Positions 1,607 to 28,490 of a stretch of 29,189 bases of DNA are shown one piece after another (positions within the stretch are counted from its first letter, which is position 1; each line of letters begins with the position of its first letter). The notes under the pieces are model-generated. The model was not told where the DNA came from. It did not search any database and was given only the letters and a program-made list of their open reading frames with translations. Origin of the DNA: a virus; IMG/VR virus record IMGVR_UViG_3300045115_000022, positions 1 through 29,189 of that record. One strand, written 5' to 3'. Position numbers and translations under genes: made by a program.

Positions 1607-2002
1607 CTATCTGTTGCACTCCTCTGCTGGCAGCGGAACGCCGCCGCAGCATACATCGTCGCCCCCCAGGGAGAAACCGTCGTTCGCTGGTGTCCACGCC
1701 ATTGCGCTGACGGCCGGATCGCAGGCGAGGCAGGGGTGCCCCTTCGGGTCTTCCCACACCCCGGGCAAATCAGGCACGCACACGCCGTCGATGGCGCAGA
1801 AATAGGGGACCACCTCGTGCACACACACGCCTTCAACCAGGCTGTCTGCCGTGCAGAAGAGGCCGTCGTCGCAGTCCTCGGGTTCCATGTCCCCGCCGTC
1901 CATTCCATCCGCGTCTGTCACGTCCAATGCGACGGTTGCCGCCGGGGGGTCTTCCGGTGCGCACGAGAGTAGCAGGAATGCTGCGACGATAATGGTCCCC
2001 AT
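1607..2002 (-). CDS. Cysteine-rich lipoprotein
   Basis: The 131-residue product begins with a short hydrophobic stretch ending in the lipobox L11-L12-S13-C14, so it is predicted to be a lipoprotein, lipid-modified at Cys14. An acidic linker (about 20-45) precedes a domain with ten further cysteines in the order CDDGLFC, C, C-x5-C, C-x2-C, CC and C, plus the segment CDPAVSAMAW. From memory, such patterns are frequent in surface proteins of Myxococcota. The start at 2002 comes two bases after the tailspike stop (TGA-TC-ATG), with no strong Shine-Dalgarno, suggesting coupled translation. A phage lipoprotein at the end of a tail operon could block reinfection, aid lysis or alter the cell surface; none of these can be shown here. 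The reading frame continues open upstream inside the tailspike gene, but that part is a shadow. Confidence 0.7.
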   Translation of the reverse strand: MGTIIVAAFLLLSCAPEDPPAATVALDVTDADGMDGGDMEPEDCDDGLFCTADSLVEGVCVHEVVPYFCAIDGVCVPDLPGVWEDPKGHPCLACDPAVSAMAWTPANDGFSLGGDDVCCGGVPLPAEECNR

Positions 2003-4055: not shown

Positions 4056-5912
4056 CTACACCTCGTAGTCGTGCGGATAGATGTCTGCGAACACGCCGCC
4101 GATGCCCTCGCGGACCCCGGCCCCATTCACCTCGTCGAAGCAGCCGGCCTGCGGATCATCGACCCAGCCGAAATGCTGCTTGTCTTCGGCGCTCACGACC
4201 CACAGCGTCACGCCGCCCGCTGCGATGGGTTGGAACTGGTCGGTGATGTCGTTTGGCAGTGGGTCTGCGCCGGCCGCCATGCGCAAGGCGACGATGACGT
4301 GCGATGACTGATGCGGATGCGGGATGCTCTCTTCCGCGTAGGTGCGGCGCACCCGGAGCATCTGCGGATGGAAGATGTTTTGGAACGCCTGGATAATCTG
4401 CTCGGTCAGGCCATTGCCCGTGTTGATGGCAGCCTTGATGAGGATGCGCAGCCGGTAGTCGGCATCGGAGAGCCCGCCGCGCTGCTGGCCAACGATTGCC
4501 CCGATGCGGTCGAGCTGCTTGCCGGTCGCGTAGTTGACCCAGAGCTGCTTGCCCACGTCAACCAGGACCTCATAGAGATCCTCGAAGATCGCCTTGGGCG
4601 CCACGGCCCCGATCAGCGCCTTGCAGAAATCCTTGAGGTAGGTGCTCTGCTGGTACTGACCGGGCAATGCGTAGGTCTCCTGCTCTTCCCACAAGGGCCA
4701 GGACCATTGGTATTCGTATGGACCGATGTCCCATGCGGCACCGCTCAGTGCAGCCCCGAGGATGTCTGCCGAGCGACCAGAAACTGCCTGCCCCGCGTCA
4801 ATTGCGAGTGCCCCATAGAGCAACGTGAAGTCGCCGCCAGCCGCGTTCGTGTGCCCGGGGTCCTGGCCGATCTTGTCGTTCGGGCCGACTACCCAACCCG
4901 CGGTTTCCGTGCCGTTGCTGTAGCTGATGTTGCAATCGCTATCGGGCTGTGCCGTCCCGCTCGACCAGTAGCCCCGGCCTGAGCAGTTGCGGACGATGCA
5001 GTTGCGGACGTTCGGCGCTGCGCCGACCGGGTTGGCCGCCACATGGATGCCGTGCTGGCACCCGTAGACAACGCCGTTGCGGACGCGGCAGTATGCTCCA
5101 AGGAAGGCTGCGGCCGTCTCGCAGAGGATGCCAACGTCAGACCCACCGCCGATGATCTCGAAGTTGGTGAGGCTGATGCCGCGGCTGTCCTGGTGACAAT
5201 GCAGGACCGTGCCACCGCCCGAGTTGTCATGGAGTTTGAGTCCGTCAACAACCAGACAGTCCCCGGCCCCGGCTCCGCCGAACGAGACGCCCGTGAAGTC
5301 GTTTGTCGCAACGCAATCCCGGATCTCCGCCCCGGTGACTGTCGGTCGGCCGCACGCGTTGATCGAGCGGATGCCGACGATGGCCCCGCCTGCCGCCGTG
5401 CTCTGGAGGCGGACGATCTCCGGGCTCGTGATGGTTCCGCCGCCGCAGCCATCGAGCGTGATGCCGAAGTGCGACGCGTTGTTGTCCGTCCCGATGTTGA
5501 TGACCGGCCGGAGGATGGTCGGTTCGGCAGTGCACCGGATGTGGTAGCAGTTCCCGGCAGCGGCGTAGCCGTTGTTCTCGAGATAGGGGTCTTCGATGAC
5601 GTTGTCTATTCCGGAGACCCACAGCACATACCGTCCATAGCGCTTGGCCTTGACTCGGCCGGAATCCCGCTCGAGGATCAGTCGATTGCCGGCGCCCGTG
5701 ATTCGGAGCCAGTCGAGCGTTGCCGCCAGGCCGTCGAACGTGTAGTCGCCGCCGGCGTGCTTCCACGTGATGTTGTTCTTCGTCCAGACGACGGTCGGCA
5801 CGGTATCCGTGTGCGGTCCGTGCGATATGATCGTATCTCCATTGGCGGCGGCGGCCAGCGCTGCCGACAGGCTGGTGAGTGGTTGCCCGGCTCCGAAGTG
5901 GATCTCAGACAT
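4056..5912 (-). CDS. Baseplate DUF2612-type protein fused to an N-terminal beta-helix
   Basis: The 618-residue product has two parts. Residues about 5-402 form a parallel beta-helix beginning with a GDTI-x-x-x-GP-x-T strand (24-34) and an ITWKHAGGDYTFDG motif (48-61), and ending in a DIGPYEYQ strand. Residues about 420-618 match the DUF2612 family found next to baseplate J genes, with GKQLDRIGAIVGQQRGGLSD near 464-483 followed by DYRLRILIKAAINTGNG. DUF2612 proteins are usually about 200 residues and stand alone. The role is likely to link the baseplate wedge to the fibre, with the helix as a built-in spike or spacer. ATG 5912 follows a GGGGGGCGGG run and overlaps the previous stop by eight bases; ATG 5936 is an alternative. 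The beta-helix is clearly related to the secreted protein at 26725-28092. Confidence 0.78.
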   Translation of the reverse strand: MSEIHFGAGQPLTSLSAALAAAANGDTIISHGPHTDTVPTVVWTKNNITWKHAGGDYTFDGLAATLDWLRITGAGNRLILERDSGRVKAKRYGRYVLWVSGIDNVIEDPYLENNGYAAAGNCYHIRCTAEPTILRPVINIGTDNNASHFGITLDGCGGGTITSPEIVRLQSTAAGGAIVGIRSINACGRPTVTGAEIRDCVATNDFTGVSFGGAGAGDCLVVDGLKLHDNSGGGTVLHCHQDSRGISLTNFEIIGGGSDVGILCETAAAFLGAYCRVRNGVVYGCQHGIHVAANPVGAAPNVRNCIVRNCSGRGYWSSGTAQPDSDCNISYSNGTETAGWVVGPNDKIGQDPGHTNAAGGDFTLLYGALAIDAGQAVSGRSADILGAALSGAAWDIGPYEYQWSWPLWEEQETYALPGQYQQSTYLKDFCKALIGAVAPKAIFEDLYEVLVDVGKQLWVNYATGKQLDRIGAIVGQQRGGLSDADYRLRILIKAAINTGNGLTEQIIQAFQNIFHPQMLRVRRTYAEESIPHPHQSSHVIVALRMAAGADPLPNDITDQFQPIAAGGVTLWVVSAEDKQHFGWVDDPQAGCFDEVNGAGVREGIGGVFADIYPHDYEV

Positions 5913-6177
5913 GCCCGCCCCCCAGCCGCCATGCAAGCGGCGATGGCTTGACAGAGTTGCCGCCCTTGGTCACGCACCAGGCCCTGTCCGCGATGCTGCC
6001 TGCATCGAGCCCTTTTTTTTCCTCGACCTCTGCCACGGCAAGCCGACAGGACTGCGAGACCCGAATCTCGCCACGCTCCCCCGGACCCCACGGATGATTG
6101 ACAGGACCCATGCCGATCACGAGGCCCTCGAATTCATGGCCGGCGGGGCCGGCGATATAGCAGACGGTCACGATCAC
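5905..6177 (-). CDS. Small protein of unknown function between baseplate genes
   Basis: About 90 residues, with no family recognised. The sequence opens with a hydrophobic strand (IVTVCYIAGPAG), continues with glycine/proline-rich segments, and then an AVAEVEEKKG helix and a basic tail. I chose GTG 6177 because it overlaps the baseplate J stop as GTGA, matching the style of neighbouring junctions; ATG 6231 and GTG 6171 are also in frame. Its end overlaps the next gene by eight bases. Close packing on both sides argues that it is real. A phage baseplate accessory role is inferred only from position. Confidence 0.5.
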   Translation of the reverse strand: MIVTVCYIAGPAGHEFEGLVIGMGPVNHPWGPGERGEIRVSQSCRLAVAEVEEKKGLDAGSIADRAWCVTKGGNSVKPSPLAWRLGGGHV

Positions 6178-7670
6178 GGGATCACCACGAAGGAAACATC
6201 TACCTCGAGCAGCGTTGCCCGCTCGTTCCATGCGATGGCAATGGGCAACCCGGACCAGCCGACGGGGGCCACCTTGTAGTCGATCTGGATGACGAGCTGG
6301 TCAATGCCGGCGACCCCGGAGTAGATTGGGCCGATGTAGCGGGTCGGGATCATGTCCTTGCCGATGAGTTGGCTGGTCGTCGCCCACTCGGCCACGATGG
6401 CCTTGATCTGGTCCTGGCCGTCGGTCGGGAAGGTCTCCTCATCGTAGATGTGATAGAAGACCCGCATCTTCATTCCGACCTCGGTCGGGTAGGAGAAATA
6501 CATGACGTGCTCGACGCCCTGCGAGTCCTTGAGTGTGTAGGAGTCGCTTCCGTAGGTGGCGATGCCAGCGGCCACGGTAGCAAACAGGGCCTCTGCCAGG
6601 ATCTGGTCATTTGCCGGCGTGTCCTCGATGTCCACCACCGCATAGACGGAATGCGGCGGGGCTCCGTTGCTGTCCACCGCGTCGGTGATGTTCTCGAAGA
6701 CCATGGCCTCGTCGACGTCGTCGAGCTCGAGCAGCGCCGACCTGATGGCCTCCAGTGGTCCGCCGTTGGCGACATGCAGTTCCTGCTCGCGCCGCAGCCG
6801 TAGCGCAGCATCCGTCTCGATGTCCCGGCCGATGTCTGCGGCCACGAGGTTGACCGTGCTCTGCCAACCCGCCACCGGGTCGAGGGTGTTGTCGATGAGG
6901 GTGAGTTCGGGAGCGGCGACCGGCCCGGTATCCTCGGATTCCAGGTAGCCGACGGCCCCGGTCTGGTCGATGCTGATGGTGCCGATCCCTGCGACTACCG
7001 CAACGGAAACCGCCAGGGAATCAGGGACCTGCGTCCCCGCCGGCTCGGCCAGGATCTGGAGTGTGTCTTCTCCGTTCATGACGGTGGCGCGCACCAGAGG
7101 GCCAAGCGTGGCGTCGATTTCGATTGCGGTTGCCAGCGCAATGAGCGTCGTGCGTGAACTCCCATACCCCACGGCCGATTTCGTGATGCCATTGATCGTG
7201 ACCCGATAGGTCGTCGCCACATCGTGCACCGTCGAGATCCAGGCACCCCAGCAAGCCGTCGCCAGCGGAGTCGAACTGGCGAGGATGTGCTCGAACGCCA
7301 CAGCAGGCAGCGCTCCATCAACGCCGATGCGCGTTCCGACCGGGATGGTGGTCGCCGGGTCCATGCGGTGGATGTTCCAGCAGGTGCTTTCCGTGGCAGC
7401 CTTGCGGGCGATGCCGGTGAGCGACACCAGATTGTCGAGGGCAACCCCGCTTGCCGTATCCGTGCCCTGCGCGTTGTAAATGTCCTCCGCGACCTGCCAC
7501 AGCTTGTCGGCCACGGACAGGACCAGAGAGCCGACAAGGGTGAAGAGCGACGACGTCGTGGTGTTGACCGTCGCTCCGAACAATTGCTTGAGTCCGCTCT
7601 TGTACTCGTCGAGCAGGTCGGACAACTTCTTGCGGCGAAAGCCGGTGGTGACGACGCCGAACAGACTCAT
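6174..7670 (-). CDS. Baseplate J-like protein
   Basis: The 498-residue product matches the baseplate J (P2 gpJ / Mu gp47-like) layout: an N-terminal helical part (FRRKKLSDLLDEYKSGLKQLFG), the DTASGVALDNLVSLTGIARKAAT segment that precedes the beta-rich insert, and a central strand-rich region. The LRLRREQELHVANGGPLEAIRSALLELDDVDEAMVFEN block is typical of the family. This protein builds the wedge ring of contractile tails and transmits the signal for sheath contraction. The start overlaps the gp25-like stop as ATGA. The length is within the family range (about 350-500). Confidence 0.9.
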   Translation of the reverse strand: MSLFGVVTTGFRRKKLSDLLDEYKSGLKQLFGATVNTTTSSLFTLVGSLVLSVADKLWQVAEDIYNAQGTDTASGVALDNLVSLTGIARKAATESTCWNIHRMDPATTIPVGTRIGVDGALPAVAFEHILASSTPLATACWGAWISTVHDVATTYRVTINGITKSAVGYGSSRTTLIALATAIEIDATLGPLVRATVMNGEDTLQILAEPAGTQVPDSLAVSVAVVAGIGTISIDQTGAVGYLESEDTGPVAAPELTLIDNTLDPVAGWQSTVNLVAADIGRDIETDAALRLRREQELHVANGGPLEAIRSALLELDDVDEAMVFENITDAVDSNGAPPHSVYAVVDIEDTPANDQILAEALFATVAAGIATYGSDSYTLKDSQGVEHVMYFSYPTEVGMKMRVFYHIYDEETFPTDGQDQIKAIVAEWATTSQLIGKDMIPTRYIGPIYSGVAGIDQLVIQIDYKVAPVGWSGLPIAIAWNERATLLEVDVSFVVIP

Positions 7671-17521: not shown

Positions 17522-19411
17522 CTACGCCTGCTCGGTCACGTCGATCTCTGCGCCGGAGATGGCAGCGGTCGTCGCTGCGGCCGTGGTGCACTGGACCCAC
17601 AGATGGTAGGTCTTGTCGGCACCGACGGTCACGGCCAGGCCGGTGGCACCGTCATCGAGCGCATAGGCCGCCGTCTTGCTCACCTGCACCATCACGCTTT
17701 CCTCAACGCGGGTGGGGGTGGCGCCTGCGGCCTTGGCCAAGGACACCAGCTTTCCGTCGACGGTGACGGCATTTCCGCCCGAGTTGAGCGCGCCAAGCAG
17801 CCTGTACCCGGTGATCACGTCCCCGACCCGCAGGCCCGGGATGGCGATGAGCAGATACTCGTTGGTCTGGCTGGCCGGGAGTGCAGCATGGCCGAGTTCA
17901 TCGATGGTCCAGTTGGTGTCCATGCCGATGAACGCGTTTGCCTTGATCACGCGGGCGCTGGTTCCGTCCTGCACCCACGCAGGAAGCAGAAGCACGGTCA
18001 GGTCCACCCCAGCACCACCGGCGGTCGAGAGCGCCACACCGAGGGCGTAATGGCCCTTGATTCCGCTGGCGGTAATGGCCCGGCCGACCACATTGGCCTG
18101 CACCGTATCGCCAGCAGTCACGGCAGCGCCAGAGGTGCAGGTCACGACCCCGGCGAACTGTACGGTTGCGGAGACGCCGACGGCCGCGGTATCGAGGCTC
18201 ACGCCGATGGCCCGCTGGCCGCTCGACGTGATCGCCTTGCACTCGCCGGCCACAGTGTTGGCGGTGACGAACAGTTTTGCGGTCACACCTGCGGCCTCGG
18301 CAATCAACTCGGTCGTGAGCTGCGATGGCAGATCCTGCTCCCACCCCATAGGGACGATTGCGACATTGATGTCGCCGCCGCCCGCACCGTCTGCGCTGAG
18401 TGCGTAGCCGATCAGGTGATTGTCAGCACTGGCAACGTAGGTCACGGCCAAGCCGGCCGCATCCGCCATGAGCGCGGCCCCAGCAGCCACGATGCCGCCG
18501 GTGGTCACGCTGGCGATGCCAGCCATCTGGACGATCACATTGCCGCCACCCGCATCGGTCGTTGCGCAGACGCCGATTGCCGCATCTCCGGCTCCGCAGG
18601 TGTCGACGCGGCCCGCCACGGTGCCGGCCTTGACGAACGTCTTGGCGGTGGTGCCGCCGGCACCTGCGATGAGGGTGGTCTGCACCTTGGTCTGCACAGT
18701 GGGGTTTGCTCCGCGCTGGGTCAGGAGCACGTGCACGTCCGCATCGGCGCCCGCAGTGTCATTCAGTGCGGTACCAAGGACGAAGTAGCCGGCAGTGCCG
18801 GGGTTGTCGATGACCTTGCCAGCCGCATTGCAGATCAGTTCGGCCCCGAGGGTGACGGCTGCGCCCGAGGTCGCGGTGGCGACGCCCGAGGTCTGCACGA
18901 CCACTTCAGCAGCCGCTGCGGCCCCGGTGACCACGATGCCCACGCAGTCGGACCCGAGGGTACCCTTGACCACTTCGTCATCGGCAGACCCGACCTTGAC
19001 GGCCAGTTTGGCTGCGGCGCTCAGGTCGGCACCGGCAGTCATGCGGGCAAGGCCGCTGGACTCCTGCCCGGGCATGAGCTGCACGTCGAACAGGGCTCCG
19101 GTCGCTGCACCCGTGATGGCCACGCCAAGGGCGTAGCCGTCGCCGGTCTTCTTGTGCGCCTTGCCGGAGGCATCGGACTCGACGGTATCGCCTGCCGTGA
19201 TGGCGGAGCCGGCGATCATCTTGACCTTGCCGGCCGTTGCGACCTCCGCCGCATGCCCGGACGAAGGCGTGTTGACCAGCACCCCGACGCACTTGCTGCC
19301 GAGGGTGCCGACGTTGACCGTGTCGGCCGAGATGAGCCTGACCGCGTAGTACTGCTTCGCGCTCAGATCGGCTCCTGCGATGTAACTCTGCCTGGTGACG
19401 CTCTCGGACAT
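17522..19411 (-). CDS. Capsid decoration protein with four tandem domains
   Basis: The 629-residue protein is built of four copies of a 115-123-residue beta-rich unit of DUF2190-like decoration type, followed by a different C-terminal domain at about 484-629. The repeated core appears as GSAITAGDTVESDASGKA (68-85), GAAVTLGAELICNAAGKV (183-200), GGIVAAGAALMADAAGLA (305-322) and GAAVTAGDTVQANVVGRA (428-445). Each is followed by a lGxAL strand and a V-x-L-L strand. Single-domain members are about 100-120 residues and bind capsid lattice sites. The ATG follows GGGAGGAG at four-base spacing. Its place between scaffold and capsid genes fits. The C-terminal domain is not recognised and could face outwards. 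Confidence 0.8.
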   Translation of the reverse strand: MSESVTRQSYIAGADLSAKQYYAVRLISADTVNVGTLGSKCVGVLVNTPSSGHAAEVATAGKVKMIAGSAITAGDTVESDASGKAHKKTGDGYALGVAITGAATGALFDVQLMPGQESSGLARMTAGADLSAAAKLAVKVGSADDEVVKGTLGSDCVGIVVTGAAAAAEVVVQTSGVATATSGAAVTLGAELICNAAGKVIDNPGTAGYFVLGTALNDTAGADADVHVLLTQRGANPTVQTKVQTTLIAGAGGTTAKTFVKAGTVAGRVDTCGAGDAAIGVCATTDAGGGNVIVQMAGIASVTTGGIVAAGAALMADAAGLAVTYVASADNHLIGYALSADGAGGGDINVAIVPMGWEQDLPSQLTTELIAEAAGVTAKLFVTANTVAGECKAITSSGQRAIGVSLDTAAVGVSATVQFAGVVTCTSGAAVTAGDTVQANVVGRAITASGIKGHYALGVALSTAGGAGVDLTVLLLPAWVQDGTSARVIKANAFIGMDTNWTIDELGHAALPASQTNEYLLIAIPGLRVGDVITGYRLLGALNSGGNAVTVDGKLVSLAKAAGATPTRVEESVMVQVSKTAAYALDDGATGLAVTVGADKTYHLWVQCTTAAATTAAISGAEIDVTEQA

Positions 19412-25890: not shown

Positions 25891-25952
25891 GCGATCAACT
25901 GCGCCTGCTTCCCGGTCTCCAACTTGCCATCGTCCTGCCTCGGCCTGCCCAT
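25887..25952 (-). CDS. 21-codon coupled leader ORF between terS and terL
   Basis: The tiny frame encodes MGRPRQDDGKLETGKQAQLIA. Its ATG overlaps the terS stop (TGATG) and its stop overlaps the terL start (ATGA). GGAGAGGG lies about seven bases before its ATG, whereas terL has none nearby. The arrangement indicates translational coupling rather than a working peptide. Confidence 0.5.
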   Translation of the reverse strand: MGRPRQDDGKLETGKQAQLIA

Positions 25953-26659
25953 CAGTTCGCCCTCTCCTTTTTGGCCTGCTTGATCGCCTGCTCCATTTCC
26001 GGCCGCTGCTTCGCCACGGCGACCCCGATCTCGGCCAGATAGTCGACGAGCTGCTCGTCGGTCAGGTCTTCAACGAGGGCCGTCGCTCCGGTACGTCCGT
26101 CCCGGATCTCGCCGCTGTGCTGCACCTCGAGTTTGGCCTCGCTCTTCCAGTGCTCCCGACTTCGGTTGCAGAGCCAGAACTTGATCGCGGCGATGTCGGG
26201 CGGAAGGAAGTTCCCTGCCTTGTCCCGGAATGCCTGGCCGGTCGCCCGGTTCCACAGCGCCTTGGTCACAGAGCGGGTGCCTTTGGCGCGCGCCTCACGT
26301 AGCCTAGCCACGACATCGGGGTGCAAGGCAAGCCCGCCCTTCCAACTCTCATACGGAATGCCGTACAGCTCCGCGATCTCAGAATCGGAGCACCCGATGG
26401 CCGCCATGCCGAAAGCCTCCTCCGGCAGCCGTTGCACAGCATGCAGGTCCTCCGGGCGCGTGTCAGGTACCTGCCCGCGCATGGGGCGTGGTCGCACCTT
26501 CCCGCTCGCGGTCAGGCCATAGGGCGCGAACGGGGAGCCGTCTTCCGCGCGTCCGAACGGGGCGGACTGGTCGAGTTTCCGCGCGGGCTTCTCCGGCCGG
26601 TTCTGCTTCCTGCGCCTGCGCCTGTGTGCGGGCTTCTTGTCTTTGGGGGTGGTTGCCAT
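25952..26659 (-). CDS. terS: Terminase small subunit
   Basis: 235 residues from ATG 26659, with AGGAG five bases upstream; a GTG at 26680 is less likely. A very basic N-terminus (HRRRRRKQNR) and linker precede a helix-turn-helix-like part, EEAFGMAAIGCSDSEIAELYGIPYESWKGGLALHPDVVARLREARAKGT. Then follow VTKALWNRATG and PPDIAAIKFWLCNRSREHWKSEAKLE, a segment common in small terminases, and an acidic helical tail. It recognises phage DNA and recruits the large subunit. The basic arginine run is unusually long and may help DNA binding. Confidence 0.82.
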   Translation of the reverse strand: MATTPKDKKPAHRRRRRKQNRPEKPARKLDQSAPFGRAEDGSPFAPYGLTASGKVRPRPMRGQVPDTRPEDLHAVQRLPEEAFGMAAIGCSDSEIAELYGIPYESWKGGLALHPDVVARLREARAKGTRSVTKALWNRATGQAFRDKAGNFLPPDIAAIKFWLCNRSREHWKSEAKLEVQHSGEIRDGRTGATALVEDLTDEQLVDYLAEIGVAVAKQRPEMEQAIKQAKKERAN

Positions 26660-26724: not shown

Positions 26725-28092
26725 CTAGCGAGTGAGGCGCTCGTCTCGAGTTGCGGCCAGCACCTTATCCGTGAGTGGCATTCTCACATCGTGTGCCCCG
26801 ATCTGCTGGAATTCAAAGCACCCGCGATCAAGGGCGACCCCGCTCATCGGCTGACCAGCCAAATCAAACAGCCTCGTTGGAATTGCGGCCCCCGTGTCGA
26901 CGCATGGGGATTCGATTCCCGGCTGCCAGCGCAATTGATAGTCGAGCGTTGCCTCGTCCCGGAACAGTGGGTCGCCATTCAGATCGGTGGCCGACACCGG
27001 CCAATTGACAGAGTATCTGTTCGCCGTCGCCCAATTGAACGAGGAGCCCGCAACGCCACCCGCCACCGTGTAAAACTCGCTCGCGGTAGAGTTGTGTGCA
27101 ATGCAGTTCGTGACGAAGCGTCCGCCGGCTGCCGGGACGGACTGCATGGAGATCCCCTCCTCGCCTCCAATCACGGTGCAGTTCTGGACGTTGCTATTCT
27201 GCAAGATGGGATGCACCTGCACGCCATCGTAGACAATCCCGCGGTCCGTTGTCGGAGATGAGAAGCCATATGCCAGAAGATTTTGCATGGTTGCGCTGCG
27301 ATTAGACACGAAGAACACACGGATCGCTCCACCGGCACTGAGTGCATACGCAGATGAATCGAGATAGGTGGCAAAGTCATTGGCGCCAGACCCATAGAAC
27401 CCATACAGGGAGGCCCCAGTATTCACGTTACGCAGCGTGATTCCAGTCAGCAGTGGGGAAGCGGCAGTCGACGACATGCCGATGAGGTAGGTTGTTCCGG
27501 CTCCGGTGATGGTGACATTCTCAACCGTGCTGTTCTGCACTGATGCGCCAAGCCCACCACCGAGATAGATCCCCATCCAGTTCGAGCCGGCCGGATTGAC
27601 CGGAGAGTCGACGAGCAGGTCTTGAAGCACAACGGAATTCGCGTTACTGACGACGGTGAGTTGGTACACGCCGACAGCGCCGTTCGCCGTAAGGCGAAAT
27701 CCGCCGATGGTCGAGCTCGCCCCGTTGATGACGAACGGCTGCGCCCCAATGTAGCCAGTGACGACGATTCGCCCCGTCGCACTCATGGCATTGACGTTCC
27801 AGGCTGTATTGCTCGCTGCGAGCGTGAGCCAGACCGATGTCGCCCCGGTTCCGTTGAACGTGTAGTCGGCTCCGTAGTGCCGCCACGTGATCGTCGTCAC
27901 GCCGGCTGGCGGGGCGAGACTCTGATTGTTCTCCGTGTACGGTCCATAGGTTTCAATCGTGTCCCCGGTCACCAGCGCGGCGAAGCAGGAAGCGAGCGTC
28001 GAATAATCCTTTCCCGTTCCTACGGTGCGCACGGTGGCGGTCGCAGAGGACGTGACCAGACAGCACAGGATCACCAACAGAATCCGTCTCAT
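26725..28092 (-). CDS. Secreted right-handed beta-helix protein
   Basis: The 455-residue product begins at ATG 28092 with AAGGAG eight bases upstream. Residues 1-19 are a Sec signal peptide (MRRILLVILCCLVTSSATA, cleavage expected after A-T-A). The mature part is a parallel beta-helix with DYSTLASCFAALVTGDTIE, GPYTEN (50-55) and ITWRHYGADYTFNG (68-81). It ends with a DPLFRDEATLDYQLRWQPG strand and LDRGCFEFQ. The same N-terminal motifs and closing strand occur in the baseplate fusion protein at 4056-5912, so the two are paralogues. A signal peptide on a protein inside a head-tail operon is odd. It may act on the host envelope or glycans after export. No catalytic residues were identified. Confidence 0.8.
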   Translation of the reverse strand: MRRILLVILCCLVTSSATATVRTVGTGKDYSTLASCFAALVTGDTIETYGPYTENNQSLAPPAGVTTITWRHYGADYTFNGTGATSVWLTLAASNTAWNVNAMSATGRIVVTGYIGAQPFVINGASSTIGGFRLTANGAVGVYQLTVVSNANSVVLQDLLVDSPVNPAGSNWMGIYLGGGLGASVQNSTVENVTITGAGTTYLIGMSSTAASPLLTGITLRNVNTGASLYGFYGSGANDFATYLDSSAYALSAGGAIRVFFVSNRSATMQNLLAYGFSSPTTDRGIVYDGVQVHPILQNSNVQNCTVIGGEEGISMQSVPAAGGRFVTNCIAHNSTASEFYTVAGGVAGSSFNWATANRYSVNWPVSATDLNGDPLFRDEATLDYQLRWQPGIESPCVDTGAAIPTRLFDLAGQPMSGVALDRGCFEFQQIGAHDVRMPLTDKVLAATRDERLTR

Positions 28093-28490
28093 TGCGGTTC
28101 TCCTTGCGGCGGCACGACCAATGGCGCCGGGTCGATGCCCTTCACGCGCACAACCTGTCCGTCCTGGTAGGCCCATCTGCGCAGGGGGAGATCGTCAGAT
28201 CGAAAGGCCGGCGGCATGTCGACGTCTGCTGTCGCCAGCGGCGGAGTGTTGTCGCCAGGCCCCCATTCGTGACCGGCCCACACGACGGCGACGATCACGC
28301 CGGTCGCCGTGTTGTAGCAGATGGAGTGCTTCGCATGCGGGGCTTGCGGCTGCCCGGGAATAATGACAGCCGGTGGTTTCTGTGGTGCAACAGGTGGCCT
28401 TTCATCTCCGCCGCCGAATAGTCCATACACCACGACCCCGACAACAATTGCCGCACCGCCAATCATGCCATTGCGCATGAGGGGGTTCAT
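28089..28490 (-). CDS. Membrane-anchored protein with an N-terminal transmembrane helix
   Basis: The 133-residue product has a short positive N-terminus, one hydrophobic segment at about 9-26 (GMIGGAAIVVGVVVYGLFGGG) and a proline-rich linker. The rest contains CYNTATGVIVAVVWAGHEWGPG and a C-terminal part ending in VRVKGIDPAPLVV. The topology suggests a periplasmic domain. No family was recognised. The start at 28490 has GGAG seven bases upstream and overlaps the previous stop as ATGA; the end overlaps the next ATG as ATGA. Tight coupling with a secreted protein suggests a shared envelope-related job, for example anchoring. Confidence 0.62.
   Translation of the reverse strand: MNPLMRNGMIGGAAIVVGVVVYGLFGGGDERPPVAPQKPPAVIIPGQPQAPHAKHSICYNTATGVIVAVVWAGHEWGPGDNTPPLATADVDMPPAFRSDDLPLRRWAYQDGQVVRVKGIDPAPLVVPPQGEPQ

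Follow-up and report, generated by a model that had tools for sequence, protein, structure and literature searches.

Many choice-of-anchor Q proteins (NCBIfam NF041518) are exported from the cells that make them. Among phage products, Llp of T5 interferes with the receptor from the periplasm and is encoded beside the T5 receptor-binding protein (PMC9586334). On the virion side, mutation can turn a DUF2612 baseplate protein of Pseudomonas phage K8 into a receptor-binding one, which sets a precedent for adhesion within this baseplate family (PMC9887876). In the literature, we found nothing direct on exported homologues of tail proteins or on choice-of-anchor beta-helices in phages. Here, we describe a phage genome that encodes a beta-helix fused to a DUF2612 baseplate domain (P0002) and a homologous helix preceded by a predicted Sec signal peptide (P0001).

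The window analysed is the complete IMG/VR record IMGVR_UViG_3300045115_000022 (29,189 bases). Head and tail genes on the minus strand assign this record to a contractile-tailed phage; they encode terminase, Mu-type portal, Mu F-like protein, major head protein, sheath, tape measure, E217-type hub, baseplate J, the baseplate fusion P0002 and a tailspike (P0003). A further minus-strand gene (17522-19411) encodes an unusually long head-decoration-like protein of 629 aa with four tandem stretches matching the Phage_cement_2 family.

The open reading frame of P0002 (residues 1-618; 4056-5912, minus strand) combines a beta-helix domain, delimited by homology (residues 1-402; 4707..5912), with a C-terminal DUF2612/baseplate part (residues 403-618; 4056..4706), which was recognized by PF11041 with an E value of 1.8e-6, above the cut-off, and by the baseplate family phrog_1160 with 1.2e-11. 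The same fusion occurs in three further IMG/VR phages, G001 (P0006), L020 (P0007) and G057, at L005 14040-15956 (minus strand), L020 about 4832-6712 (plus strand) and L030 10001-11839 (plus strand), and in all three the gene sits between baseplate J and the tailspike. G057 is the closest relative, with 46% identity over the entire P0002, 55% in TerL and 54% in the portal. Because three further phages carry the same protein, the fusion is, as judged from sequence, a conserved virion part. Across the four phages, conservation of the fusion helices is higher in the end caps than in the middle coils. In MW202816, the DUF2612-like gene close to that for the baseplate wedge is short and encodes no helix. 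The helix fused directly to the DUF2612 protein and kept in four phages is an adhesin-like part added to a baseplate family that is already tied to host range in K8 (PMC9887876).

P0001 (455 aa; 26725..28092, minus strand) was placed correctly by the first-pass annotation as to reading frame, coordinates and strand. Its start is preceded by a ribosome-binding site, AAGGAG, at 28100..28105 on the same strand, seven bases before the ATG. The annotation had further proposed that P0001 is a paralogue of the baseplate fusion on the basis of two motifs, and both blocks are present as quoted: GDTI at residues 43-46 of P0001 and 25-28 of P0002, and ITW(R/K)H-x-G-x-DYTF-x-G at residues 68-81 and 48-61. 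The equal spacing claimed for them did not hold, as GDTI and ITW lie 25 residues apart in P0001 but 23 apart in P0002, which requires a two-residue gap. The similar strand reported at the end of both proteins was found (DRGCFEFQ in P0001, DIGPYEYQ in P0002) and corresponds to the end of the NCBIfam choice-of-anchor Q domain, for which P0001 scores below the cut-off.

The likeness extends far beyond these motifs. BLASTP aligned residues 25-429 of P0001 with residues 7-402 of P0002 at 27% identity over 414 aa (E 1e-21), and tblastn on the same record matched residues 24-429 to the P0002 locus (E 9.8e-24). The Smith-Waterman score of the pair was 286, while the best of 500 shuffles reached at most 82; without the motif region it was 169 versus at most 64 in shuffles, and for the middle coils alone 106 versus at most 60. 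As a control, we compared P0001 with the tailspike P0003 of the same phage, also a beta-helix, which gave z = 0.6 against z = 35 for P0002. Since the shuffles scored far lower and the tailspike control was negative, the two proteins share homology over the whole domain and not a common beta-helix look; chance or generic likeness is thereby ruled out. P0001 thus aligns with the baseplate helices over their entire length and well above other beta-helices, although its own helix is not fused to a DUF2612 domain. Broken down by region, 39% of residues are identical to P0002 in the N-terminal cap, about 20% in the middle coils and 30% in the end part.

What sets P0001 apart is its N terminus. Residues 1-19 (MRRILLVILCCLVTSSATA; 28036..28092, minus strand) have the sequence features of a Sec signal peptide, namely a positively charged start (MRR), a hydrophobic core (ILLVILCCLV) and an A-x-A site (A17-T18-A19|T20), as expected for Sec export and cleavage by signal peptidase I, and the hydrophobic stretch is the strongest N-terminal one among 29 genes. 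In the alignment, the predicted first mature residue, T20, falls opposite the initiator Met of four baseplate helices, and the right-handed beta-helix domain, defined by homology to residues 1-402 of P0002 and by AlphaFold2 strands, follows directly (residues 20-430; 26803..28035, minus strand). The protein ends 25 residues past the helix and has no Pfam match. In its sequence we saw no lipobox, no C-terminal anchor and no signal for passage of the outer membrane. The first-pass annotation had named two outcomes that would refute it, an alignment limited to the motifs and an N terminus that is no signal peptide, and neither was observed at the level of sequence features. The first-pass view that one copy bears export features and the other is fused to a baseplate domain therefore stands at the level of predicted sequence features.

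These features bear on whether P0001 might itself be assembled into the particle, with the hydrophobic N terminus acting as a non-working signal or an anchor. Such a role would agree with the kinship to a baseplate part and with the coupling, described below, to a protein that looks like a phage appendage protein with a repeat type found in many phage contigs. The sharp signal-peptide features argue against it, however, with the A-x-A site exactly at the domain border, as does the lack of a DUF2612 or other docking domain. Moreover, the parts of tailed-phage virions normally fold in the cytoplasm. We regard a place in the virion as quite improbable.

P0001 lies upstream of the gene for the terminase small subunit (25952..26659, minus strand; phrog_309, E 1e-15), which is the next gene after it, and is not adjacent to the tail genes. 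It overlaps by the four bases ATGA with the upstream gene for P0004 (28089..28490, minus strand), a small protein with one N-terminal membrane segment for which a search for relatives gave none. P0004 overlaps likewise with P0005 (28487..29188, minus strand), and because of these successive overlaps the three genes form a translationally coupled set. The record ends inside P0005, so its start is cut off and the promoter region and any further genes lie beyond view. P0005 is a member of a loosely defined group of phage proteins with SLTVDG and ITVDGTFW repeats that also occurs in 12 other viral contigs, none of which contains a helix of the P0001/P0002 family. At the other end of the record, directly after the tailspike, a gene at 1607-2002 (minus strand) encodes a Cys-rich putative lipoprotein with a lipobox-like LLSC and 11 Cys in 131 aa. 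It had no match in the phage collection; its relative in G057 is 40% identical (L030 14164-14580, minus strand) and is encoded on the strand opposite to that of the tailspike. By its predicted lipobox, this protein would be another product that these phages direct to the envelope.

The coupled set is accessory, since P0001, P0004 and P0005 are all missing from the roughly 8.6 kb of G057 sequence that precedes its terminase, and since GC3 of the set is lower (0.71, 0.68 and 0.71 for P0001, P0004 and P0005) than in the other genes (0.74-0.93). The corresponding region is off the contig in G001 and L020. P0001 was perhaps acquired from another phage. An assembly chimaera with its junction between P0001 and the terminase gene is conceivable. 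In viral contigs, phages and plasmids we found neither relatives of P0001 nor a second example of an exported form of the helix; the P0001-P0002 alignment used as query retrieved no relative from viral contigs, and the PDB held none by sequence.

To place the split between the two forms, we built unrooted trees of five helix sequences (P0001, P0002 and those of G057, G001 and L020) under ten combinations of alignment and model; such trees do not give the direction of change between exported and baseplate forms. P0001 attached to the branch between (P0002, G057) and (G001, L020). Pairing it with P0002 or with the G057 helix was rejected in all ten combinations (p-AU about 0.002 or less), whereas pairing with G001 or L020 was rejected by the AU test and not by the SH test. 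These trees rule out that P0001 arose as a recent copy of the baseplate helix in this phage. Because the pairings with P0002 and G057 were rejected, the split, as read from these sequences, is older than the separation of the phage from its closest relative; the kinship is real and ancient. The earlier view of P0001 as a look-alike of the adhesin is not supported in the sense of a close likeness, as identity to the baseplate helices is only 24-27% overall and about 20% in the middle coils, the region in which one would expect a ligand to be contacted.

An accessory gene of lower GC3 whose product ends like a choice-of-anchor Q domain could also be host cargo, that is, a cell-type exported beta-helix carried for the benefit of the host, for example as a surface adhesin. 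However, the entire helix of P0001, including the N-terminal cap, matches the phage baseplate helices, while the cellular matches (Fermentibacteria), obtained in a search with two patterns, span only its last 165 residues or so. Among 42 genomes of the G002 phylum there was only one weak C-terminal match, with internal stops. The score against NF041518 was 13.7 bits (E 0.057), below the curated cut-off of 25 bits. No C-terminal anchor was seen, which also speaks against cargo of this kind, and we consider it improbable.

We then asked what the fold says about activity. An AlphaFold2 model of P0001, based on four sequences, placed beta-helix strands between residue 21 and about residue 345; its last part was poorly modelled and its mean pLDDT was 69. 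It predicts a right-handed beta-helix. For P0002, the model was poor as a whole, with a mean pLDDT of 54. The P0001 model matched generic right-handed beta-helices in cellular enzymes and viral proteins weakly, the best solved matches, with TM below 0.45, being polysaccharide hydrolases and lyases of beta-helix fold. The latter point to a secreted depolymerase or lyase that would cut envelope or capsule glycans late in infection. Yet none of the GH28 motifs NTD, (G/Q)DD, GHG and RxK was found in P0001, which rules out a GH28 enzyme. The charged residues invariant in the five helices are D44, D370, D384, D399, D410, D422 and E427, and none falls in the central coils. The lack of an invariant central charge is more in keeping with binding than with catalysis, and given also the weak, generic matches, a glycan-degrading activity appears very unlikely.

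Our preferred reading, to which we give about an even chance, is that P0001 is an exported, probably periplasmic accessory helix of a contractile-tailed phage that binds a ligand of the envelope or surface. It would be made together with P0004 and P0005 from the coupled set upstream of the terminase, directed across the inner membrane of a presumably diderm host by the Sec signal peptide set exactly before the helix, and cut after Ala19. Because it has neither lipobox nor C-terminal anchor, the mature protein would probably remain soluble in the periplasm until lysis. There, or once released, our best guess is that it serves as a stand-alone binding module for a glycan or protein of the envelope or surface.

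Whether such a module would meet the ligand of the tail is a separate matter. P0001 might act in superinfection exclusion or as a decoy, masking or jamming the receptor of the baseplate helix or tailspike, or soaking up sites on debris after lysis. Its export signal and kinship with a tail part are consistent with this role, and periplasmic action on a receptor, known for T5 Llp (PMC9586334), offers an analogy, though this case, like that of K8, is no direct evidence on P0001. On the other hand, the old divergence and about 20% identity of the middle coils do not imply a shared ligand, P0001 is not encoded beside tail genes, and to block a receptor from outside, P0001 would have to cross the outer membrane if the host is diderm, a step for which its sequence showed no signal. 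We hold exclusion of this kind to be unlikely. That the exported protein, in the envelope or once lysis has occurred, targets the ligand class of the tail, for example keeping progeny from re-adsorbing to infected cells or debris, is in our estimate improbable. Neither a common receptor nor common catalysis is implied by middle coils with about 20% identity and no invariant central charge.

Compared with known systems, P0001 is predicted to share the right-handed beta-helix fold with GH28 and PL6 enzymes, but differs from them in its lack of GH28 motifs, its weak fold scores and the absence of conserved acids in the central coils. It resembles the NF041518 proteins in the C-terminal end of the helix, while its score (13.7 bits against a cut-off of 25) and the lack of a visible C-terminal anchor separate it from them. 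Like the superinfection-exclusion proteins T5 Llp and Cor (PMC9586334), it is phage-encoded and, by its predicted signal, envelope-directed; T5 Llp is a small lipoprotein, however, whereas P0001 is a predicted beta-helix of 436 residues without a lipobox. Its closest counterparts are the helix-DUF2612 fusions (P0002, P0006, P0007 and the G057 protein), with which it shares the whole beta-helix, the N-terminal cap motif and the choice-of-anchor-Q-like end at 24-27% identity; these have no signal peptide, and their helix runs into the DUF2612 baseplate domain of a virion part. In this phage genome, a single fold family would serve in the tail and also, behind a predicted signal peptide placed exactly at the domain border, in an exported protein. 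Should the exported form bind a surface ligand, it would offer a simple way to test whether tail binding modules are reused by phages beyond the particle itself.
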